Part shown: positions 4,811 to 32,701 of the stretch, piece by piece
Numbering within the stretch: the first letter of the stretch is position 1
How the letters are laid out: the number at the start of each line of letters is the position of its first letter
NCBI GenBank assembly: GCA_003252075.1
Contig: QKDO01000081.1
Span: 1 to 36,799 of the forward strand
DNA: 36,799 bases
From: Nitrospirota bacterium
GTDB lineage: Bacteria > Nitrospirota > Thermodesulfovibrionia > Thermodesulfovibrionales > UBA6898
Direction of reading: 5' to 3'
Position numbers and translations under genes: made by a program
The notes under the pieces: model-generated
Databases searched by the model: none
Told to the model about the DNA's origin: nothing
Seen by the model: the letters and a program-made list of their open reading frames with translations, nothing else

Positions 4811-4881
4811 AAAAAGCTCTATTATCTCTCTTTCTCTCTTATAATCTTGTTTTTTCTATATTTTTTAGGAAAGAGCTTTTT
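4811..4881 (-). terminator. possible terminator after the zinc-ribbon gene
   Basis: The arms AAAAAGCTCT (4811-4820) and AGAGCTTTTT (4872-4881) are exact 10-base complements separated by 51 bp of A/T-rich sequence. The inner arm overlaps the end of the upstream gene and the distal arm is followed by more T tracts. It could end the HATPase-rhomboid-zinc-ribbon transcript, but the long loop makes this weak. Confidence 0.3.
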
Positions 4882-5767: not shown

Positions 5768-6438
5768 GTTTTAGACCTCCTTGGCTGCCACAATTTTATG
5801 GTGATAAGACCGGCGATGAACCCCCCGACATGGGCAAACCACGCAATACCTCCCTGATTCCGGATCCCCTGCGCGGTCAAGCCGCTCACGACCTGTATAA
5901 TAGCCCAAAATCCTATAACTATCAAGGCAGGAATCTGGATGGTCTGGACGAAAAATCCGAGGAATATGAGTGTATGGATACGGGCGTAGGGAAAGAGCAG
6001 TAGGTAGGCGCCAAGAACGCCCGATATGGCCCCGCTTGCACCGATCATCGGCACGGTAGAGGAAGGCGCGATCAGTGCGTGGGATACCGCAGCCGCGATC
6101 CCGCAGAAGAGGTAAAAAAAGATAAATCTGAAATGGCCGAGCCTGTCTTCGATATTGTTACCGAAGATCCAGAGGTAGAGCATATTGCCGAAGATATGGA
6201 AAATGCCGCCATGCATGAACATGGAGGTGAAGAGCGTTAACGCCGGATGAATAGGCTGTGTGGGTGTGGGCTGCATAGTGATAATATTGTATGGTATAGC
6301 ACCATAGGCGTAGACGATCTGCCGGCTGTCTGTGCCGCTCAGCATCTGGAGAATAAAGACCACAATGTTCAGCACGATTATCGCAATGGTGACAAGCGGG
6401 AACGTATTTGAGGGATTGTCGTCCTTATAAGGGAACAT
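5761..6438 (-). CDS. rhomboid family intramembrane serine protease
   Basis: An intramembrane protease predicted to cut transmembrane segments of substrate proteins. The 225-residue product has about six hydrophobic segments, the amphipathic HGGIFHIFGNMLYLWIFGN region, the catalytic serine motif GASGAISG and the catalytic histidine in AHVGGFIAGL. AAGGA lies 8 nt before the ATG. It overlaps both the upstream HATPase gene (14 bp) and the downstream zinc-ribbon gene (7 bp), so the three are one transcription unit. The substrate is unknown. Confidence 0.92.
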   Translation of the reverse strand: MFPYKDDNPSNTFPLVTIAIIVLNIVVFILQMLSGTDSRQIVYAYGAIPYNIITMQPTPTQPIHPALTLFTSMFMHGGIFHIFGNMLYLWIFGNNIEDRLGHFRFIFFYLFCGIAAAVSHALIAPSSTVPMIGASGAISGVLGAYLLLFPYARIHTLIFLGFFVQTIQIPALIVIGFWAIIQVVSGLTAQGIRNQGGIAWFAHVGGFIAGLITIKLWQPRRSKTW

Positions 6439-7015
6439 TTCCTGTTTCCTTTGGTGATCTCAGGCGAGGGCGCTGATCAAAAAAGCCCTGCAGCGCCTCA
6501 AGCAGATCATTTCGGATCGCGGACAGGACTTCTGAAGAGTTTATCGGGACCTCCTCGATGGCGGAGCGTATTTCGCGTGTATCAAGACGGTAGCTCATGC
6601 CATCACAAGCACAATGGAGGAGGATGTCGACGCACGGGTTCCCTGCGATCAGCGTCGTGACCGTGTCAGCGATATTGCCGAGTGGCTTCATGTCAATATG
6701 GCTTGGTCTGAAATCGGCAGTAACGACGGTACCCTTGCCCACAATAGAGCGGACCACGATGTCACCGCCCGTTTCCCTTGCCGACTGCGCCAAAAGGGAA
6801 AGTCCTAATCCTATCTTACGCGTTGTCCGGGTGGTGCAGAACGGATCGAGGACCTTCTGAAGGAATGCGTCCGTCATACCTTTGCCGTTATCCTCAATCT
6901 CTACGGTGAAAAGGTCTTTCACGGTCTCTTCGACGATGCTGATCCGGATGAATGTTGCTGCAGCATTGATCGAGTTCTCGACGATGTCGAGGATGTGGAG
7001 GGACAGGTCTTCCAT
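6425..7015 (-). CDS. HATPase_c domain ATP-binding protein
   Basis: A stand-alone GHKL ATPase of 196 residues with no histidine-phosphotransfer or sensor domain. The N box (VENSINAA), G1 box (DNGKGM) and G2 box (GLGLSLL) are all present in the first 110 residues. The remaining 80 residues form an alpha/beta extension (ILLHCACDGMSYRLDTREI). Proteins of this shape are commonly encoded in [FeFe]-hydrogenase/HydB gene clusters. Here the gene lies about 2 kb downstream of such a cluster (9.2-19.6 kb), on the same strand but separated by a plus-strand gene. Role and target are unknown. Confidence 0.85.
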   Translation of the reverse strand: MEDLSLHILDIVENSINAAATFIRISIVEETVKDLFTVEIEDNGKGMTDAFLQKVLDPFCTTRTTRKIGLGLSLLAQSARETGGDIVVRSIVGKGTVVTADFRPSHIDMKPLGNIADTVTTLIAGNPCVDILLHCACDGMSYRLDTREIRSAIEEVPINSSEVLSAIRNDLLEALQGFFDQRPRLRSPKETGNVPL

Positions 7016-9173: not shown

Positions 9174-9914
9174 TCAGAGGACTACTTTTCTGTTGTTTTT
9201 TCCGCCAAGAGCGAGGCTGAGTTCTTCAAACGAAGCGTGGTTCATATACAGGCCAATTGTTTTTTTCCCAATGTCCTCAAGCTGGTGGGCATCAGAGGAT
9301 GTGATCCAGGGGAGGGTACGGTACCCGCCGAATTTCTCAATGGCTTCTTCCATTCCGGTTCTTGATGAGATCTCAAGTGCGTCGAAGCCGGCCTCCGGCG
9401 GGATGAAGCCGAGTTGGCCGATAATACCGAAGACTTCACGGTCGATGTGACTGGCCACGGCTATACCCTGAAACAAGTGAATAAGCTCAACAATCCTGTT
9501 GACCGAGAGGTCCGTTGCCCCGATCAGGAGTCTTCTATTGAACCCGAGAACCTCATCTTCTTCATTCACGATGACCTGCATGCCGAATGCATCCTCGTCA
9601 TTGTCTCCTGGCTGAAGATGCTCGTAAACAAATTCCTGCATAGCAAGGGCAAGCTCGAGGTTTTCGAAGAAGCCAAGCACATGGACCTCCTCGGACGACG
9701 TGATCTCCATGCCCGGGATCACCGCAATTCCCCGTTTCTTGCCGATTTCCTGCGTTACTGCAATATTTTCGGCAGAGTTATGGTCACAAAGAGCTATGAT
9801 GTTGATTCCGCGGGATGCAGCCGTTTCGATGATATTGCGCGGAGTCATGAAAAGGTCTGCGCAGGGGGAGAGGCATGAATGTATGTGGAGATCTGCCCTG
9901 AATTCTACCGGCAT
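9174..9914 (-). CDS. PHP domain metal-dependent phosphoesterase
   Basis: A predicted metal-dependent phosphatase or nuclease of the polymerase-and-histidinol-phosphatase family, 246 residues, with no fused domain. Metal-binding motifs are in order: DLHIHSCLSPCA (residues 8-19), CDHNS, GMEITSSEEVHVLGFF, ASHIDRE and SSDAH. The start overlaps the upstream DRTGG gene by 10 bp, so it is the last gene of the redox-enzyme cluster. PHP proteins of this kind recur beside HydB/NuoF-like subunits and the DRTGG/ATPase set, but their substrate is not known to me. Confidence 0.9.
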   Translation of the reverse strand: MPVEFRADLHIHSCLSPCADLFMTPRNIIETAASRGINIIALCDHNSAENIAVTQEIGKKRGIAVIPGMEITSSEEVHVLGFFENLELALAMQEFVYEHLQPGDNDEDAFGMQVIVNEEDEVLGFNRRLLIGATDLSVNRIVELIHLFQGIAVASHIDREVFGIIGQLGFIPPEAGFDALEISSRTGMEEAIEKFGGYRTLPWITSSDAHQLEDIGKKTIGLYMNHASFEELSLALGGKNNRKVVL

Positions 9915-10246
9915 CTCAGCCCGAGGGCATAGAGCCTCCCGACGAGTTCAAACGTAGGCAATGCGCTGGTCATGACAGGAATGTTCTCCGCAACAGCACG
10001 CTTAAGCGTATCTTCATCAGGTCTTCTGTTGTTCACTAGGATAATGCCGGCCAGCCCTTTGAGAGATGCTACGGCGACAATATTAAGGTGGATCTGCAGG
10101 GTGATCCATATGTTGCCCCCGGAAGAGTTACCCATCACATCTGATAGGAGGTCGCTCACGTAGCCGCCTGTCACCTCTCTGGTCAGATCGAGCCCGGGGG
10201 TCTTCACCTCAAGAGACAGTCTGTTTACGATCTCCTGCAGGTTCAT
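9905..10246 (-). CDS. DRTGG domain protein (distal copy)
   Basis: A small cytoplasmic protein (113 residues) consisting of a single DRTGG-like alpha/beta domain, a presumed ligand-binding module. The characteristic N-terminal part is VTGGYVSDLLSDVM, then a hydrophobic strand (GLAGIILVNN), then IPVMTSALPTFELVGRLYALG. It starts inside the end of the anti-sigma-type ATPase gene (4-bp overlap) and is about 25 codons shorter at the C-terminus than the second DRTGG gene in the same operon. Its ligand and partner are unknown. Confidence 0.85.
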   Translation of the reverse strand: MNLQEIVNRLSLEVKTPGLDLTREVTGGYVSDLLSDVMGNSSGGNIWITLQIHLNIVAVASLKGLAGIILVNNRRPDEDTLKRAVAENIPVMTSALPTFELVGRLYALGLRCR

Positions 10247-10689
10247 GCACGCTCCTTATCGCCATTCGCCAGACGGATGGTGAACTCCAGGGTAGTGCCT
10301 TCGCCTACCATGGAATTGATGACGAAGTGGTCGGTGCTCTTTTTGATGTTCGGCAGTCCCATTCCTGATCCAAATCCCATCTCGCGGATATAGTCCGGCG
10401 CAGTGGAATACCCTTCGGTCATGGCGAGGTCAATATTCGGAATTCCCTGTCCCATGTCCTGGATCGTGACAGAGATTTCGGTATTCGATATCCGATATTT
10501 CATCATTCCTGCTACGGCGTAAATGATTACGTTCATTTCTGCCTCAAAGGCAGCGATAGCCGTTCTCCGTATGATATCCTGCGGGACACCTCTCTTTTCG
10601 AGCACCCCTTTCAGGCTGCTCGACGCCGCGCCGGCATTGGTGAAGTCCTTGCCAGTGAGAAAAAAAACACCTTCCTCGGCGTTGATCAT
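10243..10689 (-). CDS. anti-sigma-factor-like serine/threonine ATPase (HATPase_c)
   Basis: A 148-residue GHKL ATPase of the RsbW/SpoIIAB type, without sensor or dimerisation domain. The N box is AAFEAEMNVIIYA, G1 is DMGQGI and the G2 loop is GFGSGMGLPNI. An AGGGA lies 9 nt before the ATG. RsbW-type proteins bind and phosphorylate partner proteins, but no sigma factor or STAS antagonist is encoded here. It lies between two DRTGG genes, and its consistent pairing with them suggests they are its partners; that is inference. Confidence 0.85.
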   Translation of the reverse strand: MINAEEGVFFLTGKDFTNAGAASSSLKGVLEKRGVPQDIIRRTAIAAFEAEMNVIIYAVAGMMKYRISNTEISVTIQDMGQGIPNIDLAMTEGYSTAPDYIREMGFGSGMGLPNIKKSTDHFVINSMVGEGTTLEFTIRLANGDKERA

Positions 10690-10747
10690 CCGCGGCTATC
10701 CCTGGCCACAGTCATTGAGTAAAGAGCGTACCGCACGATTGTACCTG

Positions 10748-11140
10748 TTATAGAGATTGTGCACGCACAGTTATGATCGGCGCCTGATTCAGATGGTGAA
10801 ATTGGCTCCGGAGACCTCGTTCATAGAGTTTGCCGCAGGTATCGAACATCGAGAGATCTGTTACGAGGAGGGGAATGCGCTTTTCCTCGGCGAGCTTGAT
10901 AGTCTGGCTGTCAGGGCTCTTCCCCTGGATAAAGACGATCACCTCGATAGCAGCCATTTCGGCGGTGCGAATTACCTGCGCGTTGGTCAATCCCGTGACA
11001 AGGAGGGATTTTGTTACCGAAAAGGACAGAACATCGCTCATCAGATCTGCGCAGTATGCGCTTTCAACAGTTTTCTGAAGCGGCACCTGATCGGTGAGCA
11101 TGCGTGCTTTAAGTATGGAAAGGATTTCAGCGAGATTCAT
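10748..11140 (-). CDS. DRTGG domain protein (proximal copy)
   Basis: A 130-residue protein with one DRTGG-like domain (VESAYCADLMSDVLSF, then VIVFIQGKSPDS, then IPLLVTDLSMFDTCGKLYERG). It is a diverged paralogue of the 113-residue protein further along the operon. The start overlaps the stop of the NuoG-like gene by 4 bp, implying coupled translation with the enzyme subunit. A 58-bp gap then separates it from the ATPase gene. A regulatory or assembly role for the oxidoreductase is inferred from position only. Confidence 0.85.
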   Translation of the reverse strand: MNLAEILSILKARMLTDQVPLQKTVESAYCADLMSDVLSFSVTKSLLVTGLTNAQVIRTAEMAAIEVIVFIQGKSPDSQTIKLAEEKRIPLLVTDLSMFDTCGKLYERGLRSQFHHLNQAPIITVRAQSL

Positions 11141-13596
11141 CCTTTAGCACTCTCCACTTTTACTGCGCAGGTACTTGCGGCACCGTTCTCCGGGTAGTAG
11201 AGCAGTGCGTTGACGCGGCCATGCGGGAAATGGGTCGAGGTGAAAACCGAACCTGCAGGGACAGCATCTGTTACCCGTGCCTTGAGATAGATGGTGCCTC
11301 TCCGGGAGGATACCTTCACATGCGTGTTATCCGTTACCGCCAACTTTACCGCGTCCTCATCATTGATTTCGAGGTAGGCTTCGGAGACGACCAGATCGAG
11401 GGATTTGGAACGGGTCGACATGGTGCCCGAATGCTGAAGAACGTCCCTGATCACCAGGGAAAAGGGATACTCAATCGATGGAGTCTCGCCAGTTACAAAA
11501 GCCACAGCATGAAACACCCTTCTGTCAGAGGGCGAGTTTGTTTCGCGCACGGTCTCCTTGATCTCCTCGGAAAGACCTTCAACACTTCGCGTTCCGATCT
11601 CCTTACCCAGAGCAAGGGAAAGGTTTCTCAGGATCTGCCAGTCAGGCAATGATTGGCCCGGCGTCTCAACGATCCTCTGCAGCTTCTGTGTTACTCCTTC
11701 TGCATTCACAAACGTGCCGTTTTTTTCCGCCCAGCCGGCAGCAGGCAGAACAATATGCGCGAGTTTTGCCGTTTCGGTGAGTGCTATGTCCTGGACTATG
11801 AGCAGGTCGAGAGATTTCAACACAGATTGTATCTTCGAGCTGAAGGGATACCGGGAGACAGGGTCCTCACCCAGGATGATGAGGCTCCGTACCGCTCCCT
11901 GTTCGTAGAGCATTTCAGCGAGACCCTTGAAGCCGGAGACGGGCTGAATCCCCATCTTGACCATGCCAAAGGTGTTTGCGTACTCAGCGGGGATCTGAAG
12001 GGTTTCCGGATCATCGCCGAGGAGCAGTACAAGATTTGCAGCTGCAAGAACCGTTTCTCTGCCCTTGGTGTTCTCGGAGATATTCATGGTAAGGGTGATC
12101 ATGCGGTTCTTCGCTCTTGCCAGCTCCTCTGCTGAAGCGATCAGCCCAGCCTCAGGAATGCCGGTGATCTTTGACACCTTTTCCGAAGTATAATCATCAA
12201 GACTCTTCTCAAATGCATCGAACCCCTCCGTCTTTGAGACGATCTGCCGGTTGAAAAGGTCCCTATCGATGATGATCTTCATAAGACCATTCAGTAATGC
12301 CACCGATGTGCCGCTCTGCAGCTTGAGGTGCGAGGTGCTGTGGCGGGTGAGCTTCGTCTGCCGCGCATCTGCAACGATCAGTCTGGCCCCCTCCCTTTTT
12401 GCCTGGAGGATATTCAGGGCAAAGACGGGATGGGTCGCGCTGATATCGGATTCAACGACCAGGATGACATCCTTGCCCAGGGGGGCCTTCATGCTTATGG
12501 TGTGGGACTTCGTGCCGAATGCCATGCCAAGCGCCTTCTGGACAGCGGCATAACCGAACGCAGCAGATGAATCGATGTTCCCTGAGCCAATGACGTTGCT
12601 CATGAACTTCCGGAGCATGTAGTTATCCTCATTGGTGCAGCGGTGAGATCCGATTGCTCCGACAGCTTCCTTGCCATGTGCTGCAATGATATGGGTTAGA
12701 CTGTCACTGGCAAACTTGAGCGCCTCGTCCCATGTTGCAGGAACAAGCTCACCGCCTTTTCTGACGAGAGGGGTCTTCAGCCGGTTTTCACTGTAAATGT
12801 AGTCAATGCCGAACCGTCCCCTTCCGCAGAGGTTCCCTTCGCTCCGCCCATTATCTTCCTTTGCGCGGGACCTGAGGATCTTACCCTCCCGGGTCCCTAT
12901 GGTGAGGGTGCAGCCGCATCCACAGAAAGGACAGATTGTGTCCTTTTCCTCGAGAAACCATGCCCGTGCCTGGAACTTCATCGGTTTGCTGAGAAGAGCT
13001 CCCGTGGGGCAGATGTCAATGCACTGGCCGCAATAATCGCACTCAAGAATTTCTCCGAAGGCCGGTTGAACGACCGTGGGGAATCCTCTGCCAATAAACC
13101 CGAGGGCGCCGCGCCCCTGGTGTTCCGCGCATATGCGAACACACTTGCCGCAGAGGATGCAGCGGTTTGCCGTAAGCTCGACAAGTGGCCCCCGTACATC
13201 CGGCGGCATCGCCTTTCGGTGCCTGATAAACCTGCCCTCAGGCTTTCCGTATTCATAGGCAATGTCCTGAAGGTCACATTCCCCTGCCTTGTCGCATACC
13301 GGGCAGTCGAGCGGGTGATGGATCAGCAGGAGTTCAAGAACCGTCTGCCGCGCCTTTTTCAGTTTTGGGGTGTCGGTCTTGATTACCATCCCGGGAGCAA
13401 CAGGCGTGGAACACGATGCAAGGAGCCTCGGATTCCCTTCCTGCTCAACAACACAGAGCCTGCATCCCCCGTATGGTCTGAGTCTTTTGTCATAACACAT
13501 GTTCGGTATGTTAATGCCGATCTTTTTTGCAGCAGCGAGGATGGTTGCGCCTTCCTCGACCGCGACTTTTTTATCGTCAATTATGAGTTCAACCAT
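11137..13596 (-). CDS. NuoG/FdhA-like iron-sulfur subunit lacking the catalytic Cys/Sec
   Basis: An 819-residue soluble iron-sulfur subunit of an NADH-linked oxidoreductase. In order it shows an N-terminal [2Fe-2S] domain (Cys34, 45, 48, 62), the His-Cys [4Fe-4S] segment (HHPLDCPVCDKAGEC, residues 93-107), a two-cluster ferredoxin domain (CILCGKCVRIC, CDYCGQCIDIC), a further [4Fe-4S] site (CPFCGCGC ... Cys257), a molybdopterin-oxidoreductase domain (about 270-680) and the dinucleotide-binding C-terminal domain. In formate dehydrogenases the sequence after NIDxxAR is Cys or Sec followed by His; here it reads NIDSSAAFGY, so Gly348-Tyr349 replace them. It therefore probably conducts electrons rather than oxidising formate. 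It follows the NuoF-like gene with no spacer. A degenerate FDH or an alternative NuoG are both possible. Confidence 0.9.
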   Translation of the reverse strand: MVELIIDDKKVAVEEGATILAAAKKIGINIPNMCYDKRLRPYGGCRLCVVEQEGNPRLLASCSTPVAPGMVIKTDTPKLKKARQTVLELLLIHHPLDCPVCDKAGECDLQDIAYEYGKPEGRFIRHRKAMPPDVRGPLVELTANRCILCGKCVRICAEHQGRGALGFIGRGFPTVVQPAFGEILECDYCGQCIDICPTGALLSKPMKFQARAWFLEEKDTICPFCGCGCTLTIGTREGKILRSRAKEDNGRSEGNLCGRGRFGIDYIYSENRLKTPLVRKGGELVPATWDEALKFASDSLTHIIAAHGKEAVGAIGSHRCTNEDNYMLRKFMSNVIGSGNIDSSAAFGYAAVQKALGMAFGTKSHTISMKAPLGKDVILVVESDISATHPVFALNILQAKREGARLIVADARQTKLTRHSTSHLKLQSGTSVALLNGLMKIIIDRDLFNRQIVSKTEGFDAFEKSLDDYTSEKVSKITGIPEAGLIASAEELARAKNRMITLTMNISENTKGRETVLAAANLVLLLGDDPETLQIPAEYANTFGMVKMGIQPVSGFKGLAEMLYEQGAVRSLIILGEDPVSRYPFSSKIQSVLKSLDLLIVQDIALTETAKLAHIVLPAAGWAEKNGTFVNAEGVTQKLQRIVETPGQSLPDWQILRNLSLALGKEIGTRSVEGLSEEIKETVRETNSPSDRRVFHAVAFVTGETPSIEYPFSLVIRDVLQHSGTMSTRSKSLDLVVSEAYLEINDEDAVKLAVTDNTHVKVSSRRGTIYLKARVTDAVPAGSVFTSTHFPHGRVNALLYYPENGAASTCAVKVESAKG

Positions 13597-15459
13597 CTAT
13601 TTTTCCTCCTTTGCCCCGACTGCAGTCTTCGCGAGGAACTCATTCGGGTCGCCATCAAAGCCCGCAGGGAGAATCCGGATCGAGTTGAACTTGCAGGTGT
13701 CGAAACACGTCCTGCAATGGACGCAAAGTTCCTGGATGATCTTATGGGGGACCTTCTTTTCACCGACAACGGCTTTTGACGGGCAGGCTCTGAGGCATGC
13801 GCCGCAGGCCTTGCAGAGTTTCTCATCGATCCAGAAGGTGGTAAGGTTGCGGCAAACGCCTGCCCTGCACCATTTTTGGTGAATGTGTGATTCATATTCA
13901 TGCTTAAAATACCTGAGCGTTGAAAGGACCGGGTTGGGAGCAGTCTGTCCAAGGCCGCAGAGGGAAGTGGTGATGATGTCCCTGCTCAGGTCTTCAAGGG
14001 TGGCGATGTCACTCTCCTTCCCTTTACCCTCAGTGATGTCCGTGAGCATGTCGAGAAGGATCTTCGTGCCTACCCGGCAGGGGGTACATTTTCCGCAGGA
14101 CTCGTCGGCAGTGAACTCAAGGAAGAACTTCGCCGTACCCACCATGCAGGTACCGTCATCCATGACGACCATGCCTCCGGAACCTACGATGGCTCCGGTT
14201 GCCACGATATCCTCGTAGGTTACCGGTATGTCAAGAAGATGTTCGGGTATGCAGCCCCCTGATGGGCCGCCAAGCTGAACAGACTTGAATTTTTTCCCTT
14301 TCTTGATGCCGCCGCCGATATCGTAGATGATGGTCCTCAGTGGTATGCCCATCGGGACCTCAACAAGACCGACATTATTGACGGCACCGGTCAGGGCAAA
14401 GACCTTTGTTCCCGCCGACTTTTCCGTGCCGAGACTGCGGTACCATGCAGAACCGTTCAGGATAATGGGGGCGATCTGTGCGAGCGTCTCAACATTGTTC
14501 AGTACGGAAGGTTTGTCCCAGAGCCCTTTCACTGCAGGGAAGGGTGGCCGCGGCCGCGGCATGCCCCGCTTCCCTTCTATGGATCTCATAAGCGCCGTCT
14601 CTTCACCGCAGACGAATGCACCGGCGCCGAGATAAATGTCAAGTTCAAAATCAAAGCCGGAACCGAGGATATTCTTGCCGAGAAGACCTGCCTCTGTCGC
14701 CTGGTCTATGGCCATTCTGAGGCGCTTAACCGCGAGGGGGTACTCAGCCCTTACATAAATATATCCGTGATGAGCCCCGATAGCCCTGGCGCCGATGACC
14801 ATTCCTTCAATCACCGAGTGCGGGTCTGCCTCCATGACGGAACGATCCATGAATGCACCGGGATCTCCTTCATCGCCGTTGCAGAGCATAAATTTTATTT
14901 CCGAGGGGACTTTGGAGGCGAATTCCCACTTAAGGCCTGTTGAGAAGCCTGCACCGCCCCTTCCTCTCAGTCCGGAGTCTTTGACCGTTTTAATGATCTC
15001 CTCGGGGGTCATTTCGGTGAGAGCCTTCGCTGCCGCCTGGTATCCGTCACGAGCGATATACTCTTCAATCTTCTCAGGATCGATGAGTCCCTTGTTCCTC
15101 AGCACTCTGAGAACCTGATGCTTGAAGAACGGGATATCCTTCATGCCGGGGATTGCGGCCTTTTTCTCCGGTTCCCTGAACATGAGCTTTTGGTAAGGCC
15201 TGCCTTTGAGGAAATGTTCCTCTACCAGCATTGGAACTTCCTCGGGGGTCACCTTCTGGTAAAAGATCTCTTCAGGATATACTGCCATAACCGGTCCTTC
15301 TGCGCAGTAACCGTTGCAGCCAGTGAGCACGATCTTAATCTCTTCGGCAAGGCCTTTCTTTGCGAGCTCTTGTTCGAGCGCTGTCTTGACCTTTGCCGTA
15401 CCGCTGGCAACACAACCGGTGCCTGCACATAACATCAGATGCGAGCGAACCTTTTCCAT
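13597..15459 (-). CDS. NuoF-like NADH-oxidising flavoprotein (HndC/HydB type)
   Basis: The FMN- and NAD(H)-binding subunit of a soluble NADH oxidoreductase, 620 residues. It has an N-terminal thioredoxin-fold [2Fe-2S] domain (Cys11, 16, 48, 52), the NuoF core with the NAD/FMN motifs GLRGRGGAGF (about 164) and NGDEGDPGAFMDR (about 194), an SLBB segment, the [4Fe-4S] site SCGKCTPCR, and a C-terminal ferredoxin domain with two clusters (CKACGACLRAC, CVHCRTCFDTC). The N- and C-terminal additions are typical of HydB/HndC subunits of (bifurcating) hydrogenases and formate dehydrogenases, and are absent from the complex I NuoF encoded at 22.9-24.2 kb in this same window. No ferredoxin-oxidising or H2-evolving catalytic subunit is adjacent. 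Confidence 0.93.
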   Translation of the reverse strand: MEKVRSHLMLCAGTGCVASGTAKVKTALEQELAKKGLAEEIKIVLTGCNGYCAEGPVMAVYPEEIFYQKVTPEEVPMLVEEHFLKGRPYQKLMFREPEKKAAIPGMKDIPFFKHQVLRVLRNKGLIDPEKIEEYIARDGYQAAAKALTEMTPEEIIKTVKDSGLRGRGGAGFSTGLKWEFASKVPSEIKFMLCNGDEGDPGAFMDRSVMEADPHSVIEGMVIGARAIGAHHGYIYVRAEYPLAVKRLRMAIDQATEAGLLGKNILGSGFDFELDIYLGAGAFVCGEETALMRSIEGKRGMPRPRPPFPAVKGLWDKPSVLNNVETLAQIAPIILNGSAWYRSLGTEKSAGTKVFALTGAVNNVGLVEVPMGIPLRTIIYDIGGGIKKGKKFKSVQLGGPSGGCIPEHLLDIPVTYEDIVATGAIVGSGGMVVMDDGTCMVGTAKFFLEFTADESCGKCTPCRVGTKILLDMLTDITEGKGKESDIATLEDLSRDIITTSLCGLGQTAPNPVLSTLRYFKHEYESHIHQKWCRAGVCRNLTTFWIDEKLCKACGACLRACPSKAVVGEKKVPHKIIQELCVHCRTCFDTCKFNSIRILPAGFDGDPNEFLAKTAVGAKEEK

Positions 15460-15504: not shown

Positions 15505-15888
15505 TCAATACGTTGTCTCGCAACCGGTAACAAGGGCATATTTCTCGACCGGCTTTCCGCCGAGCACATGCTCACGGAAGATCTCACGGATCTTTTCGTC
15601 GGTAAGGTCACTATATCTTACCGGAGGCTGGTTAGCGAGCTCTACGGTTGCGAGCGGCTCTTTCGCGCAAAGACCGGCGCATCCTGATGTCGTTACGATG
15701 ATGTCATTCCGGTTAACCTTGGCGATTTCTTCCATGACCGCTGTCATAATATTGCGCGCTCCGGCGGCAATACCACACGTGCCCATATGGACGATGATCT
15801 TGACAGTGTAGCCGCCTTCTCTGAGCGTGAAGTCAGCCTTATATTTTTCCTTGATCTTTTGGAGATCCGCTATCGTGAGTTTCGGCAT
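15505..15888 (-). CDS. thioredoxin-like [2Fe-2S] ferredoxin (HndB-type)
   Basis: A 127-residue electron-transfer protein. The start is placed at the ATG at 15888 (MPKLTIADLQKIK), which has AGGAGG 6-7 nt upstream; the frame is open 13 codons further but without a comparable site. Cluster ligands follow the thioredoxin-like ferredoxin pattern: Cys in GTCGIAAGA, then SGCAGLC, plus a Cys near the C-terminus (VTGCETTY). Related proteins serve as small subunits of NADP-reducing hydrogenases. It follows the REC-NuoE fusion gene directly. Confidence 0.9.
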   Translation of the reverse strand: MPKLTIADLQKIKEKYKADFTLREGGYTVKIIVHMGTCGIAAGARNIMTAVMEEIAKVNRNDIIVTTSGCAGLCAKEPLATVELANQPPVRYSDLTDEKIREIFREHVLGGKPVEKYALVTGCETTY

Positions 15889-15889: not shown

Positions 15890-16819
15890 CTATCCCTCCT
15901 GTTCAGCAACTGCTGCGGTTTCTTCATCGGGGGCCTGGTCGCTGGCCGGCCCTCCGTACTCGCCCATAATCTTCAACGCTTTCGATGGAGTCATCGCACC
16001 ATAGGTTTCCTGGTCGATCATCATAACCGGGGCAAGGCCACATGCACCTAGGCATCTGACTCCTTCAATAGAGAACTTTTTGTCCTCAGTCGTTTCTCCA
16101 ATGTCGATTTTGAGCCGTTCCTTGATCTTTTCGAGGACTCCTTCGATCCCCTTGACATAGCATGCAGTCCCAAGACAAACCCTTATGTTATGGTCTCCTC
16201 GCGGCTTCATGGTGAAAAAGGAATAGAAGGAGACAACACTGTGCACCTCTGCCTCTGGCATGTTCAGACCCTTTGCTATTCTCTTTTGCACAACGGGGGG
16301 GAGAAAGCCGACGATCTCCTGCGCTCTCTGAAGCGCCGGGATGAGAGAGCCCGGCCGGTGGCGGTATTCCCCGATCACTCTGTCGAGTTCCTTAGCCATG
16401 GCCGGGGGGAACTCCTCAGCCGCTTTTTCCTCGGCAGGTTTTCTGCCTTCTGCCCATTCAACAGCCCTCTTGGTCACATCGAGCAAAACCGAAGGTGTGA
16501 ACGGTTTCGGCACATAATCGATGATTCCCAGTTCGAGAGCTTCCTTCATGGTGTCCTGCGAGGGGTAGCCCGTTATGATGACGATGCCAATGTTCGGCCG
16601 TGACTTCTTGATCCACCTGATAAGTGTAATACCGTCTACTTCCGGCATCTTCAGGTCAGTGAAGACGAGGTCATACGCTCCCTGCTCCATCTTCAGGATC
16701 GCTTCGCGTCCTCCGAGCGCTCCTTCTATCTGGTAGCCCTCACTTTTCAGGACCCGTTCGGCACTCCTGATGACGACGAGTTCATCATCAACGACCAGGA
16801 TCTTAGGTTCAGCTGACAT
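15890..16819 (-). CDS. response-regulator receiver fused to a NuoE-type [2Fe-2S] domain
   Basis: A 309-residue fusion. Residues 1-125 are a receiver domain with every catalytic residue in place: Asp11/Asp12, phospho-acceptor Asp55 (LVFTDLKMP), Thr83 (IITGYP) and Lys105 (VPKPF). After an Ala/Glu-rich linker (about 125-140), residues 143-300 are a complete 24-kDa NuoE/HndA-like domain with the four [2Fe-2S] ligands Cys215, Cys220, Cys256 and Cys260 (CLGTAC, CLGAC). There is no DNA-binding domain, so phosphorylation would act on the electron-transfer subunit itself or on its docking to the NuoF-like partner encoded downstream. This is the only NuoE homologue in the cluster, so the receiver is probably part of the enzyme. 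The domains are certain; the mechanism is inference. Confidence 0.92.
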   Translation of the reverse strand: MSAEPKILVVDDELVVIRSAERVLKSEGYQIEGALGGREAILKMEQGAYDLVFTDLKMPEVDGITLIRWIKKSRPNIGIVIITGYPSQDTMKEALELGIIDYVPKPFTPSVLLDVTKRAVEWAEGRKPAEEKAAEEFPPAMAKELDRVIGEYRHRPGSLIPALQRAQEIVGFLPPVVQKRIAKGLNMPEAEVHSVVSFYSFFTMKPRGDHNIRVCLGTACYVKGIEGVLEKIKERLKIDIGETTEDKKFSIEGVRCLGACGLAPVMMIDQETYGAMTPSKALKIMGEYGGPASDQAPDEETAAVAEQEG

Positions 16820-16842: not shown

Positions 16843-17610
16843 TTAAATCGTGATCAGTTCAACGCGCGCGAGCCAGAGAAGCCATCCCTCGCTCAGGTTG
16901 TCCCTGACGAGTGCGCTCATGGCGGTGTTTGCATGCTGGTTTACCTCGATCACCCTTCCGGTCATGGGTGCGATCAGGTCATCGGTCTGCCCGCTGCTCG
17001 TAAGGACCTTGCCGAAGCTTTCTCCTGCCATGATGGTCCTCAGATGTGGGGAAACCTCTATGGAAGCGAGTTGGCCGGCCAGGAGCCAGTACCGCGCATC
17101 GCAGCCGACTTCCCATATGTTGTTCTTCAGCGGCCTCGCCCACGTCCCTTCCTTATAGAACAGGACAGGATTCTGCGTGTCCCGCAGATTGACGATGTCG
17201 TTTCTGAACTCATCGATGAAAGCCTTTCTCAGGATCCAGCCCCGGTTGTCAAATATCTTACGTGCAACATTCAGCATGAACTCGGGGGTAAAGGGCTTTT
17301 CGATAAACTCGAAGGCACCGAGCCTGACGGATTCCTTGGCATCTTCAAGGGTAGGATATCCCGTGATGATGACGACATCGAGCTTCGGCTGAACGTTCTT
17401 TGATTCCCGGAGAACCGTGATGCCGTTCATGTCGGGCAGCCTGACATCTGAGATCAGCAGGTCGAACTCTTCGGTCGACACCTTCTTGATGGCATCTTCT
17501 CCCTTGTCGACGGTAATGATGTTGAACCCTTCGGCACCGAGAATCCTCTTGCAACTCAGCGTAACGACGGGATCATCATCAAGAACTAGTATCTTCCCCT
17601 TATTTTCCAT
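16843..17610 (-). CDS. response-regulator receiver fused to a GcvH-like domain without lipoyl lysine
   Basis: A 255-residue protein. Residues 1-125 form a receiver with Asp11-13, phospho-acceptor Asp55 (LLISDVRLPD), Thr83 and Lys105. Residues about 150-250 resemble glycine-cleavage H protein / lipoyl domains: IMAGESFGKVL, then DLIAPMTGRVIEVNQHAN, then EGWLLWLARV. In H proteins the lipoylated Lys sits in the turn before the D-L-x-A-P segment; here that position is Gly207 (TSSGQTDDLIAP), so the domain cannot be lipoylated in the normal way. No output DNA-binding or enzymatic domain is present. It lies between a lone receiver and the REC-NuoE fusion. It may be a scaffold or allosteric docking module; this is speculation. 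Confidence 0.88.
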   Translation of the reverse strand: MENKGKILVLDDDPVVTLSCKRILGAEGFNIITVDKGEDAIKKVSTEEFDLLISDVRLPDMNGITVLRESKNVQPKLDVVIITGYPTLEDAKESVRLGAFEFIEKPFTPEFMLNVARKIFDNRGWILRKAFIDEFRNDIVNLRDTQNPVLFYKEGTWARPLKNNIWEVGCDARYWLLAGQLASIEVSPHLRTIMAGESFGKVLTSSGQTDDLIAPMTGRVIEVNQHANTAMSALVRDNLSEGWLLWLARVELITI

Positions 17611-17663: not shown

Positions 17664-18038
17664 TTACTTGTTTCGTATCTTAAAGACATTCGACACCGTG
17701 GCAATGAGCGTGTCGGGGGTAAAAGGCTTTTCGATATAGTCGAAAGCCCCGAGCTTGATAGCCTTTACAGCGGTCTCGACGGTCTGATACCCGGTTACGA
17801 TGACAACATCTGTCGCCGGCCATTTTCCCTTGATGTTCGCGAGCACCTCTATGCCGTCCATATTCGGCATCTTGAGGTCGGTGAGGACGAGGTCAAAGGA
17901 CTCCTCCTCCAGTAGTTTCAGTCCCTCAGGACCGTTCTTTGCCATCTTGAGCTCATATCCTTCAGGCACGAGCGTCCGGCTGCAGCTCAACCGAACGATG
18001 TCTTCATCGTCTATGACGAGTATTTTCCCCTTGCTCAT
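17664..18038 (-). CDS. single-domain response regulator
   Basis: A 124-residue CheY-like receiver with no output domain. Asp10/Asp11 (VIDDED), phospho-acceptor Asp54 (LVLTDLKMP), Thr in IVTGYQT and Lys in YIEKPFTPD are all present, so it should be phosphorylatable. Its start overlaps the 3' end of the sensor kinase gene by 4 bp, making it the direct cognate partner. It could act as a phosphate shuttle or sink for the two receiver fusions encoded next; their receivers share the TGY and KPFTP signatures with it, suggesting duplication. Confidence 0.93.
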   Translation of the reverse strand: MSKGKILVIDDEDIVRLSCSRTLVPEGYELKMAKNGPEGLKLLEEESFDLVLTDLKMPNMDGIEVLANIKGKWPATDVVIVTGYQTVETAVKAIKLGAFDYIEKPFTPDTLIATVSNVFKIRNK

Positions 18039-19612
18039 GATGTCTCCTTCAGTGCCGGGAGTCTTATAATGAAGCTGGTGCCCTCTCCGACCTTGGTGTT
18101 GATCGTGATCTTGCCGCCATGCTCCTGAATGATACCATGGGTCACGGCAAGGCCAAGTCCTGTGCCCTTGCCGACGGGTTTGGTGGTAAAAAAGGGCTCG
18201 AAGATCTTTTCGAGATCTTCATCCTTGATGCCGTACCCCGTATCTTTAAACTCTATTTCCACGAAATCATGATCGTGTTCCTTCACGTTCTTGGTTGTTA
18301 TGGTGATCGTTCCTTTGCCTTCGCATGCGTCTGCAGCATTGACGATCATGTTAAGGAATACCTGCTGTAACTGCGGCGCATCCGCCTTGATCCGTGCAAG
18401 CGAGGGGTCGAAGTTGGTAACCAGCGTAATATTGAAGAAGTCCGCCTTGTTCCTTACGATGTTGAGCGAACTGCCTAATACATCGTTGATGTTCGTAGGG
18501 GACTTTTCAGCCGTATTGGCCCGTGCAAACCCGAGCAACCCCTTGATGATATTAGAGCACCGGTTTGCCTGATCGATGATGACCTCGACATCCTCATATT
18601 CCTCAGAACCTTTCGGGAATTTTTTCAGGAGCAGATGGCCGAAGGTCACAATGCCGGTAAGGGGACTGTTGATCTCATGGGCAACGCCTGCTGCCATCCT
18701 GCCGAGGGAAGCCAGCTTTTCGGAGTGGACGAGCTGCTGCTGAGCGCGATGAATCGCATCGGTCTTCTCCTGGACCTTTCTTTCAAGCTTATTGCCCCAG
18801 TTCATCAGCTCGTTTTTCGCCTTTTTGAGCTCTGCGTTCATGGCATTGAATGTTTCCGCGAGCTCGCCGATCTCGTCTCTTCGATGGATTTCGATATGGT
18901 GGTCAAGATCCCCGGATGCCACTTTTCTCATGCCCTGCGAAAGAAGGGTCAGGGGCGTGGAAACAAGGTTCCAGAGGATGATGCAGAGCGTTGCCGATAT
19001 TACGACAGAGAAAGCGAGCACATATGCCGTTATCGCGATGCCCTGCTGCATGATGCTTTTGTCGAGGAGCTCAAGGGAAAGGTCAGCCTGGACAAGCCCG
19101 AGCATACGCTTGTTTTTGGGGTGGACATGGCATGCGGCAGTTGAGCAGGAAAATTCGTTGTATATGGGCTGTACGATGCTGAGGACCCGGTAATGTTCCC
19201 CTTTGGTTACCTTCCAGCTCGGGGTAACCTTTGCCGGCCCCGAAGAATCGTGGCATTTCAAGCAGACCGGGGCATTTTTGTCAATGACCGTGCCGACCAT
19301 CTTCTTGTCCGATGAGTAAGCGATTTTTCCCGTGCAATTGAAGATCTGGACATTCTGCACGCCTTCGGCAACGCCGACAGCCTCAACGGTCTGCTGGATA
19401 AGCAGGTCCTGATTGGTAAGCATTCCGTACCGTGTACTGTTCCGTATGTAGTCAACAAAGGAATATCCGTACTTTACCGAACTCGCCAGGAGCTCCTTTT
19501 CCTGGTGCTTGAAGAGGAAAAACCAGAAAAGCAGGCTGCCGACTACCATGAGGGTGCCGATAGTCAGAATGAGCTTTCCCGTGAGTGAGTGAAATGATTT
19601 TTTTACGCGCAT
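18035..19612 (-). CDS. sensor histidine kinase with periplasmic c-type heme motifs
   Basis: A 525-residue membrane kinase. TM1 covers about residues 12-34. The periplasmic sensor (about 36-190) contains a canonical heme c motif CLKCH (117-121) and a spaced C-x4-CH motif CSTAACH (156-162) followed by HVHP. TM2 covers about 191-213, then come HAMP (about 214-268), a coiled linker, the H box [11 protein letters not shown] with phospho-acceptor His312, N box [10 protein letters not shown], and G1/G2 boxes (DTGYGI, GTGLGL). Heme-bearing sensor domains of this type are expected to sense redox potential or small ligands such as NO, CO or O2. It heads the minus-strand cluster and starts 113 bp from the divergent nuo operon. 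No strong ribosome-binding site precedes the ATG. Confidence 0.93.
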
Positions 19613-19714: not shown

Positions 19715-19740
19715 ATTATACCGTCATGCCCGGAACTTTT

Positions 19741-20097
19741 ATGCCTTCTGAATATTTAGGGGTACTTATCTTCCTGATGGTCGCTACGGCCTTCAGTATA
19801 GGCGCGCTGGTTCTCGGCGAGTTCTTTCGCCTCAGAAGGCCCTATGCCGAGAAGCTCATGCCCTATGAATCCGGCAATATCCCTGTCGGTGAGCCCCATA
19901 TGAGATTTTCCGTCAAGTTCTATATCATAGCCATGCTGTTTGTTGTGTTCGACGTGGAAGCGGTCTTCCTCTATCCCTGGGCAGTGGTGTTTGACAAGAT
20001 CGGCCTCTACGCATTTGTCGAAATGGTGATCTTTATCGTGATCCTGTTCGTCGGATACATCTACGCATGGAGAAAGGAGGCCTTTGTATGGGACTGA
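19741..20097 (+). CDS. nuoA: NADH-quinone oxidoreductase subunit A
   Basis: A small membrane subunit of complex I at the junction of the peripheral and membrane arms. From the chosen start ([13 protein letters not shown]) it has 118 residues, three transmembrane segments, and the conserved loop YESGNIPVG after the first (KLMPYESG). An in-frame ATG at 19726 would add five residues. I prefer 19741 because the predicted transcription start near 19721 would leave the first ATG essentially leaderless, and because homologues begin close to the EYLPILIF segment. It overlaps nuoB by 10 bp. Confidence 0.93.
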
Positions 20098-20621
20098 TCA
20101 CCACGCTCAGCACGCCTTCCCAGCAGCTGGTTGAGGTTGAAGAAGGAACGAAGATCCTTGCACCGAATATCATCATCTCCACGATGGACAAGCTGATCAA
20201 CTGGGGAAGAACGTCGTCACTGTGGCCCATGACGTTCGGTCTGGCCTGATGCGCCATCGAGATGATGGCCGTGTATGCCAGTCACAATGATCTTGACAGA
20301 ATGGGAATCATCCCCCGAGGCTCTCCTCGGCAGTCTGACTTTATGTTTGTCGCCGGCACCGTGACGAAGAAGATGTCAGAGATCGTCAGGCGCGTCTATG
20401 ACCAGATGCCGGAGCCGCGATATGTTATTTCCGTAGGAAGCTGTGCCAACAGCGGCGGTATATTCGACACCTACAGCACGGTTCAGGGATGCGATACATT
20501 TCTGCCTATTGACGTATACATTCCCGGCTGTCCGCCGCGGCCCGAGGCCTTTATTGACGGGATCATCAGGCTGCAGGAAAAGATAAGGCACGAGCAGTTC
20601 CGGTGGAGCCGCTGGAGATAA
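20088..20621 (+). CDS. nuoB: NADH-quinone oxidoreductase subunit B, interrupted by in-frame TGA at an N2-cluster cysteine
   Basis: The subunit carrying the terminal [4Fe-4S] cluster N2, which passes electrons to quinone. It starts at the ATG at 20088 with AGGAGG 7 nt upstream. The frame reads through [11 protein letters not shown], then TGA (20247-20249), then [14 protein letters not shown] and on to the TAA at 20621, for 177 codons in total. In all NuoB proteins I know, this site is Cys-Cys and both residues bind N2; the TGA is exactly the first Cys. The other ligands ([21 protein letters not shown]) and the whole downstream sequence are intact. This suggests selenocysteine decoding or a single-base error or recent mutation rather than decay. 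If TGA stops translation, only 53 residues are made and complex I cannot form. Confidence 0.85.
20247..20249 (+). other. in-frame TGA at the first N2 Cys codon of nuoB (candidate selenocysteine)
   Basis: This TGA codon is followed by TGC GCC ATC GAG. Downstream RNA could form a 6-bp hairpin (GCCATC/GATGGC, 20253-20269, loop GAGAT). That coding sequence is conserved (AIEMMA), so the hairpin may be incidental. A second small hairpin (TGGC/GCCA, 20266-20280) has its 7-nt loop about 21 nt after the TGA with G in the second position, roughly where bacterial SECIS loops lie, but its stem is only 4 bp. The SECIS evidence is therefore weak. Confidence 0.5.
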
Positions 20622-20695
20622 GAGAAGTTTACATCCCATAGCCTGCAGGTGAGAAGAACCGAAGGGTTGCGGACGAAGGGCAAGAACTGAGATAC

Positions 20696-21229
20696 ATGGA
20701 ACCAATTCAGATTGCAGAGAGACTGAAGGAGCGTTTTCCCGAAGAAGTTCTTGATGTCAAGGAGTTCAGGGGGCAGGTCTCGGTCACGGTTGGAAAAGGC
20801 AGGATCCTTGAGATATGCAGATATCTCCACGATGAACCTGACCTTTACCTTGATTACCTCATAGACCTCTGTGGTGTTGACTATCTTGGCAAAAAAGATA
20901 ACCGGTTCGAAGTTGTCTATCACCTGTATTCCATACGGCATCGTCACGCACTCCGCCTTAAGGCTGAGGTTCCCCAAAACGATGCAAGAATCGACTCGGT
21001 CATGCCGGTCTGGATCGGGGTTAACTGGCATGAGCGTGAATGTTACGACCTGTTCGGCATTGTCTTTTCCGGACATCCAGACCTGAGGAGGGTGCTCCTT
21101 CCCGAGGATTGGGAAGGATATCCGCTCAGGAAGGACTATCCGCTGAAAGGACCCGATACGGAGTGGAGCGGGTTCACAGACGTACTGGAACGATCGAAGA
21201 AGTACAGACAGTTTGACTGGTACCAGTGA
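20696..21229 (+). CDS. nuoC: NADH-quinone oxidoreductase subunit C (30 kDa)
   Basis: A peripheral-arm subunit of complex I packed against NuoD. 177 residues, with the family signature [21 protein letters not shown] split as [12 protein letters not shown] and [14 protein letters not shown], then [10 protein letters not shown]. It is a separate gene, not fused to nuoD. A 74-bp gap separates it from nuoB, the largest within the operon; no alternative gene is seen in it. The nuoD ATG lies one base after its stop. Confidence 0.96.
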
Positions 21230-21230
21230 G

Positions 21231-22421
21231 ATGGAAGATATAGAAAAACCCTTTGAGACAAAAGAACTGACGATCAGCATGGGGCCCCAGCATCCTGCGA
21301 CCCACGGTGTCCTGCGGCTGGTTCTGCAGCTTAACGGAGAGAACGTCGTCAAGTGTACTCCCTACGTAGGGTACCTGCACCGGGGCGTTGAAAAGCTCGG
21401 AGAACACAGGACCTACTTTGCTGCCCTTCCGCTGACGGACAGACTTGACTACATATCATCCATGAACAACAACGTGGGGTATGTCAATGCTGTCGAGAAG
21501 CTGTTCGGTATCGAGGCCCCGGAACGGGCGAAATATATCAGGACTATGGTTGCCGAAATGGGCAGGATATCGAGCCATATCATATGGCTCGGCACGCATG
21601 TGCTGGACATCGGCGCTACTACGCCCTTCCTTCTTTCCATGGCGCAAAGGGAAAGGATCCTCGACCTCTTTGAAATGCTTTGCGGCGCGCGTCTTACGGT
21701 GAGTTACCCGCGGGTCGGCGGCGTCCGCAATGATATCAGCCAGGAGTTCCTCGATCTGCTGTACGAGTTTGTACTCGACTTCCCGTCAAACATGGACGAC
21801 TTTGAGACCCTGGTGACCGAAAACAGGATATGGAAGGAACGAACCGTCGATATCGGTGTCATTTCTGCCGAGGAAGCGGTCAACTGGGGCCTTACCGGCG
21901 GTACGCTGCGCGGCTCCGGGGTCGATTACGACGTGCGGAAATATTTCCCCTACGATGCTTATGACAGGGTCGAGTTCGACGTGCCGGTGGGCAAGAAGGG
22001 TGATTGCTACGACCGGTACCTCGTCAGGGTAGGCGAGCTGCGGCAGGCGAACCGGATAATCAAGCAGTGCATCGAGAACCTTCCGGCAGGGCCGGTCATG
22101 GCAGATGCTCCGAAGTTCACACTCCCGCCGAAAGACATGGTCCTGAAGGATATGGAGCACCTGATCCACCAGTTCATTCTTATCACGAAAGGGCCGACCG
22201 TGCCGGAAGGCGAGGTCTATGTGGGATCTGAGGTGCCGAAAGGGGAACTCGGGTTTTATTTCGTGAGTGACGGCACGGGAAAGCCTTACAGGATGAGGGT
22301 CCGCTCCCCATCCTTTGTGCACGCGTCGGTGCTCCCGAGGCTCAGCGAGGGAGGCCTTATCGCAGACGTGATCGCAAACATCGGAACGATAGACATCGTT
22401 CTCGGTGAGTGTGACCGGTAA
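21231..22421 (+). CDS. nuoD: NADH-quinone oxidoreductase subunit D (49 kDa)
   Basis: Together with NuoB this subunit forms the quinone-binding pocket of complex I. 396 residues from the chosen ATG ([13 protein letters not shown]), containing the signatures [34 protein letters not shown] and the C-terminal ERCD-equivalent [10 protein letters not shown], as in NiFe-hydrogenase-related large subunits. A TTG at 21213 is in frame and would overlap nuoC by 17 bp; the ATG one base past the nuoC stop is the simpler choice. Confidence 0.97.
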
Positions 22422-22452
22422 ATATTACGGGAAGAGGCAGACAAGGACAATA

Positions 22453-22917
22453 ATGTTCAGTAGTGCGGCAAAACAGGAGATCGAGGATATCAGGACGAAA
22501 TACCCGAATGCCCGGGCAGCTCTCCTGCCTACGATCTATGTTGCCCAGAGGGAGTTCGGATGGCTCTCCTCCGAGGCTTATGATGCAGTCGCTGACCTTC
22601 TTAACGTTCCGAAGGCAACCGTGCGGGGGGTTGCGACGTTCTATGCCATGTACAAGCAGAAGCCCATGGGCAGGCACCTTATCCAGCTTTGTACCAATGT
22701 CTCCTGCATGATCCTCGGTGCCGAACGGCTCGTCGATTTCCTGAAGATCACATATGGCGTCGAACCGGGCGGCGTATCGCCGGACGGCCGTTTTTCGCTC
22801 GTCATCATGGAGTGTATCGGGGCCTGCGGTACAGCTCCTGCAATGCTCGTCAATGATGACTTCCACGACAACCTTACGGAGAAGAAACTGCAGGAAATCC
22901 TGGAGAAATACACGTAG
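22453..22917 (+). CDS. nuoE: NADH-quinone oxidoreductase subunit E (24 kDa)
   Basis: The [2Fe-2S] (N1a) subunit of the complex I NADH module. The start at 22453 (MFSSAAKQEIEDI) is supported by AAGGA 6 nt upstream; the frame is open back to a GTG at 22405 inside nuoD. 154 residues, with cluster ligands in CTNVSC and CIGAC. It is the stand-alone counterpart of the NuoE domain fused to a receiver at 15.9-16.8 kb. Confidence 0.95.
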   Translation: MFSSAAKQEIEDIRTKYPNARAALLPTIYVAQREFGWLSSEAYDAVADLLNVPKATVRGVATFYAMYKQKPMGRHLIQLCTNVSCMILGAERLVDFLKITYGVEPGGVSPDGRFSLVIMECIGACGTAPAMLVNDDFHDNLTEKKLQEILEKYT

Positions 22918-22923
22918 AGCACC

Positions 22924-24186
22924 ATGGAAACGATACTGTTAAAGAACATACAGAATCCCAACTCGGCCGACATTGCCGAGTATAAGAAGGCTGGCGGGTA
23001 TGCAAGCATCCGGAAGGCGCTCGGGATGGAACCTCAGCAGGTCATTGACGAGGTAAAGAAGGCCGGACTCCGCGGCCGCGGCGGCGCGGGGTTCCCTGTT
23101 GCCATGAAATGGACCTTTGCTTCAGCCGATCCGAAGTTCCCGAAGTACCTGCTCTGTAATGCAGACGAGGGAGAACCGGGGACATTCAAGGACCGACCGA
23201 TCCTCGAGAAGAACCCGCATCTGCTTATCGAGGGGATGATCATCTCGGGTCACGCGCTCAAGGCTGAGTACGGATACATCTACCTGCGGGGCGAATATCC
23301 TGCTGCGAAACATATCCTTAATGCCGCGATACAGCAGGCTTACGACACTAACCTTCTCGGTGAAAATATCCTTGGCAAGGGGATCACCTTCCACCTTGCC
23401 GTGCACCAGGGAGCAGGCGCTTACATTTGCGGTGAGGAGACGGCACTCATCGAATCACTCGAAGGGGACAAGGGACAGCCGAGGATCAAGCCTCCATTCC
23501 CGGTGAACGTCGGCGTATTTTCGAAGCCGACCGTTGTCAATAATGTCGAAACGCTGTCGAACCTCCCGTATATCATAGAGGTGGGTGGCGAGACCTATGC
23601 CAAGATCGGGACCCCGGACTGCCCGGGACCGAAGATCTTCTGCATCAGCGGACATGTAGAAAAGCCCGGAATATACGAACTTCCGATGGGCACGAAGCTC
23701 AGGGATATCATCTATACGCACTGTGGCGGCATTAAGGGCGGCAAGAAGCTCAAGGCAGTCATCCCCGGCGGTATATCGACACCGGTGCTTCCTCCCGACA
23801 AGATTGATTGTCCCATGGACTTCGTGAATATGCCGAAGCATGGGAGCATGCTCGGTTCCGGTGCGGTCATCGTTATGGATGAGTCCGTTTGCCTGGTAAA
23901 GGTCTGCCACAGGGCGCTCAAGTTTTTTGAGCATGAATCCTGCGGCAAATGTACTCCCTGCCGGGAAGGCACAGGATGGCTCAGGGCCATACTCGGACGC
24001 ATCGAAAACGGCGAGGGCATGGAAGGTGACATAGACACGATGCTCGCTGTATCGGCAAATATGCTCGGCAAAACCTTCTGTCCGCTCGGCGACGGAGCTG
24101 CCTCTGTAGTGCAAAATTTCATCAAGCATTTCCGGCCTGAATTCGAAGAACATATCAGGGCAAAGAAATGTGTGGTTAACGGATAG
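22924..24186 (+). CDS. nuoF: NADH-quinone oxidoreductase subunit F (51 kDa)
   Basis: The NADH- and FMN-binding subunit of complex I with cluster N3. 420 residues, the plain complex I length, with GLRGRGGAGFPVAMKW, NADEGEPGTFKDR, an SLBB segment and the N3 site SCGKCTPCREGTGW. It lacks the N-terminal [2Fe-2S] and C-terminal 2[4Fe-4S] domains of the paralogue at 13.6-15.5 kb. Confidence 0.97.
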   Translation: METILLKNIQNPNSADIAEYKKAGGYASIRKALGMEPQQVIDEVKKAGLRGRGGAGFPVAMKWTFASADPKFPKYLLCNADEGEPGTFKDRPILEKNPHLLIEGMIISGHALKAEYGYIYLRGEYPAAKHILNAAIQQAYDTNLLGENILGKGITFHLAVHQGAGAYICGEETALIESLEGDKGQPRIKPPFPVNVGVFSKPTVVNNVETLSNLPYIIEVGGETYAKIGTPDCPGPKIFCISGHVEKPGIYELPMGTKLRDIIYTHCGGIKGGKKLKAVIPGGISTPVLPPDKIDCPMDFVNMPKHGSMLGSGAVIVMDESVCLVKVCHRALKFFEHESCGKCTPCREGTGWLRAILGRIENGEGMEGDIDTMLAVSANMLGKTFCPLGDGAASVVQNFIKHFRPEFEEHIRAKKCVVNG

Positions 24187-24190
24187 TGCG

Positions 24191-28391: not shown

Positions 28392-28393
28392 GA

Positions 28394-28906: not shown

Positions 28907-28908
28907 TG

Positions 28909-29211: not shown

Positions 29212-29214
29212 ACC

Positions 29215-32685: not shown

Positions 32686-32701
32686 GACCGGAGGACTATT
32701 A

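Follow-up and report, generated by a model that had tools for sequence, protein, structure and literature searches.

RR-NuoE, a 309-residue protein encoded at 15890-16819 on the minus strand of the 36,799-nucleotide stretch of Nitrospirota DNA analysed here (the window), covalently joins a receiver with intact phosphorylation residues to a [2Fe-2S] carrier of the NuoE type, and lies in the same operon as its probable kinase. The best overall explanation is that the receiver, once phosphorylated by this kinase, biases the movement of the domain carrying cluster C1, or the assembly, of a Nuo-Bfu-type module in which RR-NuoE would be the C subunit; we put the probability of this reading at slightly below 0.6. 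No published description of a receiver-NuoE fusion was found in the open-access literature searched.

Architecture, conservation and origin of the fusion

The RR-NuoE reading frame runs from an ATG to a stop codon with no internal stops. Its receiver (residues 7-122, 16454-16801) matches Response_reg (PF00072) in Pfam over residues 7-114 (E 2.2e-27) and has, besides the profile match, the residues of a CheY-like receiver: the acidic pair Asp11/12, the phospho-acceptor Asp55, Thr83 and Lys105. After a linker (about residues 123-137) comes the NuoE/HydC/BfuC-type domain (residues 138-288, 15956-16408), which matches the Pfam family 2Fe-2S_thioredx over residues 146-288 (E 2.1e-49), has a helical N-terminal part and carries the four cluster cysteines Cys215, 220, 256 and 260 as a C-x4-C/C-x3-C set. 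The earlier note had assigned these same receiver residues and cysteines, and the orthologues bear it out: all are invariant in 48 aligned sequences, one N-terminally truncated row excepted, and in a wider set Asp55 is kept in 62/63, Thr83 in 61/63, and Lys105 and the four cysteines in 63/63. One RR-NuoE (L096:7817-8683) has a degenerate receiver with D55N and T83V, a natural pseudo-receiver, and that of L101, from the genus in which the tie to complex I is clearest, has T83A, so in some members the receiver is dispensable. Orthologues share on average 80% identity in the receiver, 44% in the linker and 75% in the NuoE domain. Purifying selection is strong on both halves, with dN/dS of 0.01-0.05 relative to close relatives.

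A profile search found full-length RR-NuoE in 75 of 296 Nitrospirota genomes, distributed over 17 family groups of one class, and a copy cut by a contig end in one further genome; nine genomes of another class have an unfused NuoE. In a scan of 84,980 species the match spans from the receiver into NuoE at 49 loci, some of them cut by contig ends, and all 49 are from Nitrospirota MAGs. The loci from L058 onward are unfused NuoE in other phyla, and none of the 80 best-matching loci has the fusion outside Nitrospirota. Samples of 297, 299, 301 and 345 genomes from other groups (those of 297 and 345 overlap) contain unfused NuoE only or no match, with no full-length fusion; the pattern scan for the fusion is sensitive to close relatives alone, and there was no positive control for the Chloroflexota-type sample. 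Among plasmid records, none covers 80% of the RR-NuoE query. A wide spread of the fusion beyond Nitrospirota was rejected, as neither the samples of other groups nor the best 80 loci hold a full-length match.

The earlier note had raised a sequencing error, with a missed stop near residue 130, as a possible source of the fusion; an assembly join would be another. With open full-length copies in 75 genomes, 49 loci from independent assemblies, a variable linker and low dN/dS in both halves, an artefact of either kind has a negligible probability and is ruled out. The fused NuoE domains form one side of a single branch of the tree (SH-aLRT 90), and by this tree the fusion has a single origin; the receiver would have been gained once, at the N-terminus of the C subunit, in the ancestor of a single class of Nitrospirota. 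For that class, the RR-NuoE architecture is an ancient and conserved feature.

The operon and the type of its electron-input module

The operon extends from 19612 to 9174 on the minus strand without large gaps. It encodes a histidine kinase (18035-19612), a single-domain receiver identified by Pfam (17664-18038), a receiver-GcvH-like fusion (16843-17610), RR-NuoE, an HndB-like thioredoxin-fold [2Fe-2S] protein (15505-15888), a NuoF of the BfuB type (13597-15459) and a NuoG-like (BfuA) subunit (11137-13596), followed by a DRTGG-domain protein (10748-11140), an RsbW/anti-sigma-like ATPase (10243-10689), a second DRTGG-like protein (9905-10246) and a PHP-domain protein (9174-9914). The DRTGG - RsbW-like - DRTGG - PHP genes (9174-11140), together with a HATPase gene, accompany Bfu modules across phyla whether NuoE is fused or not; in the window the HATPase protein (6425-7015, minus strand) that accompanies the module in relatives is encoded apart from it. 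A zinc-ribbon protein (4865-5767, minus strand) has a weak and probably degenerate receiver domain (30.6 bits).

The HndB-like gene is a conserved downstream neighbour of RR-NuoE and probably starts at 15888, one base past the RR-NuoE stop. The cluster region of its product holds no more than three cysteines (HMGTCG...CAGLC), and in several relatives (L018, L020, L026 and L045) no copy of the gene was detected. The gene order kinase - receiver - (sigma-54 regulator) - (DRTGG/RsbW/PHP/HATPase) - RR-GcvH - RR-NuoE - HndB - NuoF - NuoG is kept in relatives with local rearrangements, and in one of them a tandem pair of NuoF/NuoG sets lies 3' of a single RR-NuoE (L185:227-8966). The receiver-GcvH protein is a second unusual fusion in the operon. 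Its D11, D12, D55, T83 and K105 are invariant in 44 orthologues, and the position of the lipoyl-lysine (Gly207 here) is Gly in 43/44; a role of the GcvH half as lipoyl carrier was rejected on account of this glycine.

Among solved structures, the NuoE half is nearest in sequence to the HydC chains 7t2r_C, 7q4v_C and 8a6t_C, and RR-NuoE scores below the cut-offs for the ordinary NuoE of complex I (125.0 against 142.4 for TIGR01958, 133.9 against 141 for NF005722). NuoF aligns at full length with BfuB/HydB structures (835 bits to 7t2r_B) and has the full BfuB domain set, consisting of an N-terminal [2Fe-2S] domain, the FMN domain, the B1 motif and a C-terminal 2x[4Fe-4S] domain. The ligands of cluster B2 in the BfuABC family are Cys438, Cys or Thr476, His525, Cys531 and Cys536 (A. 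mobile BfuB numbering), and the alignment places Cys438, Thr476, His525, Cys531 and Cys536 at these positions. His/Cys ligands of B2 are the mark of bifurcating family members (PMC9304861). By these sequence markers the module of RR-NuoE, the HndB-like protein, BfuB-type NuoF and NuoG is of the electron-bifurcating BfuABC kind. The earlier note had described RR-NuoE as a carrier of an NADH dehydrogenase; this is correct insofar as the module is of the NADH-dehydrogenase type, but the extra domains of NuoF set it apart from an ordinary NuoEFG.

The BfuABC family includes, as its type 3, the Nuo-Bfu enzymes, in which NuoEFG of complex I is replaced by BfuABC; these are found in Deferribacteres, Proteobacteria, Planctomycetes and Nitrospirae, with BfuB in clades 38 and 39, the latter including Nitrospirae (Schut et al. 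2022, PMC9304861). The operon NuoF groups with BfuB encoded in complex I operons (SH-aLRT 100), apart from formate dehydrogenase, Nfn-like and ordinary NuoF. The nearest unfused NuoE proteins (L093-L095 and L107) are encoded between nuoD and nuoH of complex I operons and are accompanied by the same HndB, NuoF and NuoG. These unfused sisters thus have BfuABC inside a 14-subunit nuo operon, whereas in the window it is in a separate, divergent operon. It is well supported, and very probable, that RR-NuoE is the C subunit of a module of the Nuo-Bfu type. At the site of the formate dehydrogenase active-site test NuoG reads NIDSSAAFGYAAV; its molybdopterin-fold domain lacks the Cys/Sec, and an assignment as formate dehydrogenase (Fdh-Bfu) was rejected for this reason.

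Nuo-Bfu enzymes and the present module have in common the BfuB-type NuoF with extra clusters, the NuoE-type C subunit and the NuoG-type A subunit, but here the C subunit bears a receiver and the genes form a separate kinase operon rather than lying inside nuoA-N. The Nuo-Bfu paper (PMC9304861) contains neither the term "two-component" nor the name "HndB". The bifurcating hydrogenases HydABC, NiFe-HydABCSL and HndABCD also resemble the module, since the NuoE half is closest to HydC and an HndB-like protein is present; unlike in these enzymes, NuoG here is without a hydrogenase domain and a receiver has been added.

Evidence for a link to complex I

A complete complex I operon, nuoA-N (19726-34129, plus strand), lies divergent to the RR-NuoE operon and includes its own nuoE (22405-22917), nuoF (22924-24186) and nuoG (24170-26773). 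RR-NuoE, regarded in the earlier note as the sole NuoE homologue of this cluster, is the only one within its own operon, but the divergent operon encodes a second and ordinary NuoE. The window genome encodes two input modules, the RR-NuoE module and the ordinary NuoE, NuoF and NuoG, and five of its proteins have a near-full-length NuoE domain. It also encodes a NuoE-NuoF fusion of 613 residues (L005:1474-3315), the NuoE part of which seems to lack the cluster cysteines. Since the ordinary NuoEFG is also encoded, the RR-NuoE module in this organism could work either with complex I or with a soluble partner.

Two genomes of one genus (G162 and G225; 98% and 96% complete) have complex I as nuoABCD-TPR gene-nuoHIJK..., without nuoEFG, and a NuoF of about 420-440 residues is absent from both. 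Two other NuoF-type sets are present in these genomes, an Nfn-like set and a formate dehydrogenase whose sequence is interrupted where Sec would be expected. Because gene content eliminates the other candidates, RR-NuoE, HndB, NuoF and NuoG are likely to be the input module for complex I in this genus. Complex I operons of this kind, lacking nuoEFG, lie at L181 and L101/L170, with a zinc-ribbon/TPR protein in the gap.

It is possible that the module is instead a soluble bifurcating enzyme with an unassigned third substrate and without a functional tie to complex I in the window organism. The complete nuoA-N operon with its ordinary NuoEFG agrees with this, as do the soluble third substrates of other Bfu types (PMC9304861). 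On balance this explanation is doubtful, given the kinship with complex I-embedded modules, the position of the kinase gene, which in many relatives is divergent to nuoA, and the genus without any other candidate for the N-module. The comparative evidence supports a tie between the RR-NuoE module and complex I.

Probable kinase signalling and proposed control of electron entry

The kinase has a predicted periplasmic N-terminal domain with a CxxCH motif (residue 117) and a C-x4-CH motif (residue 156), followed by HAMP, HisKA and HATPase_c domains. Both motifs are present in 27/27 orthologues, which suggests that the kinase carries covalently bound heme c. Similar kinases with sCache_heme (DUF3365/Tll0287) sensors also have a predicted periplasmic CxxCH domain between two membrane helices, with HAMP and HisKA below, and these CxxCH-bearing sensors bind NO or act in redox roles (PMC12889525). 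Unlike these, the sensor domain of the present kinase has no Pfam match to a known sensor family, including sCache_heme, and it has the additional C-x4-CH motif; it may be a new heme-c sensor domain.

Among the receivers examined in its own genome, the best non-self matches of the RR-NuoE receiver are the neighbouring receivers of the operon. Four positions in helix alpha1 of a receiver determine the partner kinase. The residues at these positions are VVSR in RR-NuoE and in RR-GcvH and IVSR in the lone receiver, and every other receiver examined in this genome agrees with them at two positions at most. Orthologues largely preserve these residues; in RR-NuoE the fourth position varies. In the kinase operon at L101, no receiver other than that of RR-NuoE was found. 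From the shared alpha1 residues and the common operon, we infer with good confidence that the neighbouring kinase phosphorylates RR-NuoE. RR-NuoE might receive little phosphate, because three proteins of the operon carry receivers.

A movement of the C-terminal domain of BfuC has been proposed to bring C1 within reach of B2, opening the bifurcation path (PMC9304861), and the structure of T. maritima HydABC points to HydC near a mobile bridge (PMC9499530). A receiver at the N-terminus of the C subunit appears well placed to bias this movement or assembly. RR-NuoE, as a C subunit of the BfuC/HydC/NuoE type with cluster C1, would sit beside the HndB-like protein, the BfuB-type NuoF and NuoG, and electrons from NADH and ferredoxin would pass through this module to complex I or a closely related acceptor. 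The upstream kinase would probably sense a periplasmic redox or gas signal through its covalently bound heme c and phosphorylate Asp55. This would alter the packing of the receiver on the NuoE domain, or its docking beside it, and so bias the movement of the C1 domain, or the assembly, on which electron passage depends. Direct control of electron transfer or assembly by phosphorylation, as suggested in the earlier note, is plausible and is the best explanation. A more specific version, in which the heme-c kinase gates the entry of NADH and ferredoxin electrons within seconds through the receiver on the C1-cluster subunit and receiver-GcvH is a second protein-level output, is tentative.

In the AlphaFold monomer model of RR-NuoE (pLDDT 76.3, pTM 0.44) both folds are present and the linker is of low confidence. 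The model gives no confident packing between the receiver and the NuoE domain, so the monomer shows no allosteric contact; a phosphorylation-dependent contact would therefore need NuoF or NuoG, or be transient. The flexible and poorly conserved linker (44% identity, low pLDDT at 127-136) and the further receivers of the operon are also what one would expect if the receiver served in docking, dimerisation or localisation, or as a sink for phosphate, and positioned the input module or tuned the kinase while electron transfer itself stayed the same. Receivers often work by protein-protein contact, for example Rv3143 on the Nuo complex (PMC9274095). Such a role is nevertheless unlikely, since it is the phosphorylation residues that are near-invariant and not the fold alone, and a mere scaffold would have no need of Asp55, Thr83 and Lys105; it also leaves the choice of the subunit with mobile C1 unexplained.

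Information could also flow in the opposite direction, with the redox state of the [2Fe-2S] cluster setting phosphorylation or dephosphorylation of the receiver, so that RR-NuoE would inform the kinase of electron flux and, in some species, a sigma-54 regulator of the operon as well. In many relatives the operon encodes a sigma-54-type receiver protein of 463-490 residues with I-V/I-S-R at the alpha1 positions. A stand-alone RR-NuoE, the second copy in its genome besides that of L103, lies directly 3' of a PAS hybrid kinase of 1123 residues with no NuoF or NuoG nearby (L104:3089-7452). This reading is quite improbable, as the kinase possesses a periplasmic sensor of its own that bears heme motifs, and genes for NuoF and NuoG almost always accompany that of RR-NuoE, in the manner of an enzyme subunit.

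In response regulators of the CheB, PleD and RpfG types a phosphorylatable N-terminal receiver controls an enzymatic, non-DNA-binding output. The output of RR-NuoE differs from these: it is an iron-sulfur protein within a redox enzyme of several subunits. A mycobacterial parallel is Rv3143/MSMEG_2064, a free-standing receiver with NuoD as its binding partner and a modulating effect on complex I (PMC9274095). Like RR-NuoE, it has no DNA-binding domain and is encoded near nuo, and it acts on NADH dehydrogenase I, as RR-NuoE may do; unlike RR-NuoE, it is unfused and binds NuoD rather than NuoE, and it was not phosphorylated by the kinases tested (PMC9274095).

Control of bacterial electron-transport enzymes is mostly discussed as transcription or substrate supply. 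If the preferred reading is true, electron entry would be gated directly, reversibly and under the control of a signal, and not only through gene control. Most likely, phosphorylation relays a redox or gas signal from the periplasm to the subunit that is proposed to gate bifurcation by its movement. The phospho-state of RR-NuoE, like D55 mutants and beryllofluoride, would then offer an experimental handle on how Bfu enzymes control the electron path from C1 to B2, and the genus in which the RR-NuoE module is the only candidate left for feeding complex I makes the gating hypothesis testable in a natural setting. The findings suggest that cells of many Nitrospirota raise or lower electron entry by direct phosphorylation, beside gene control.
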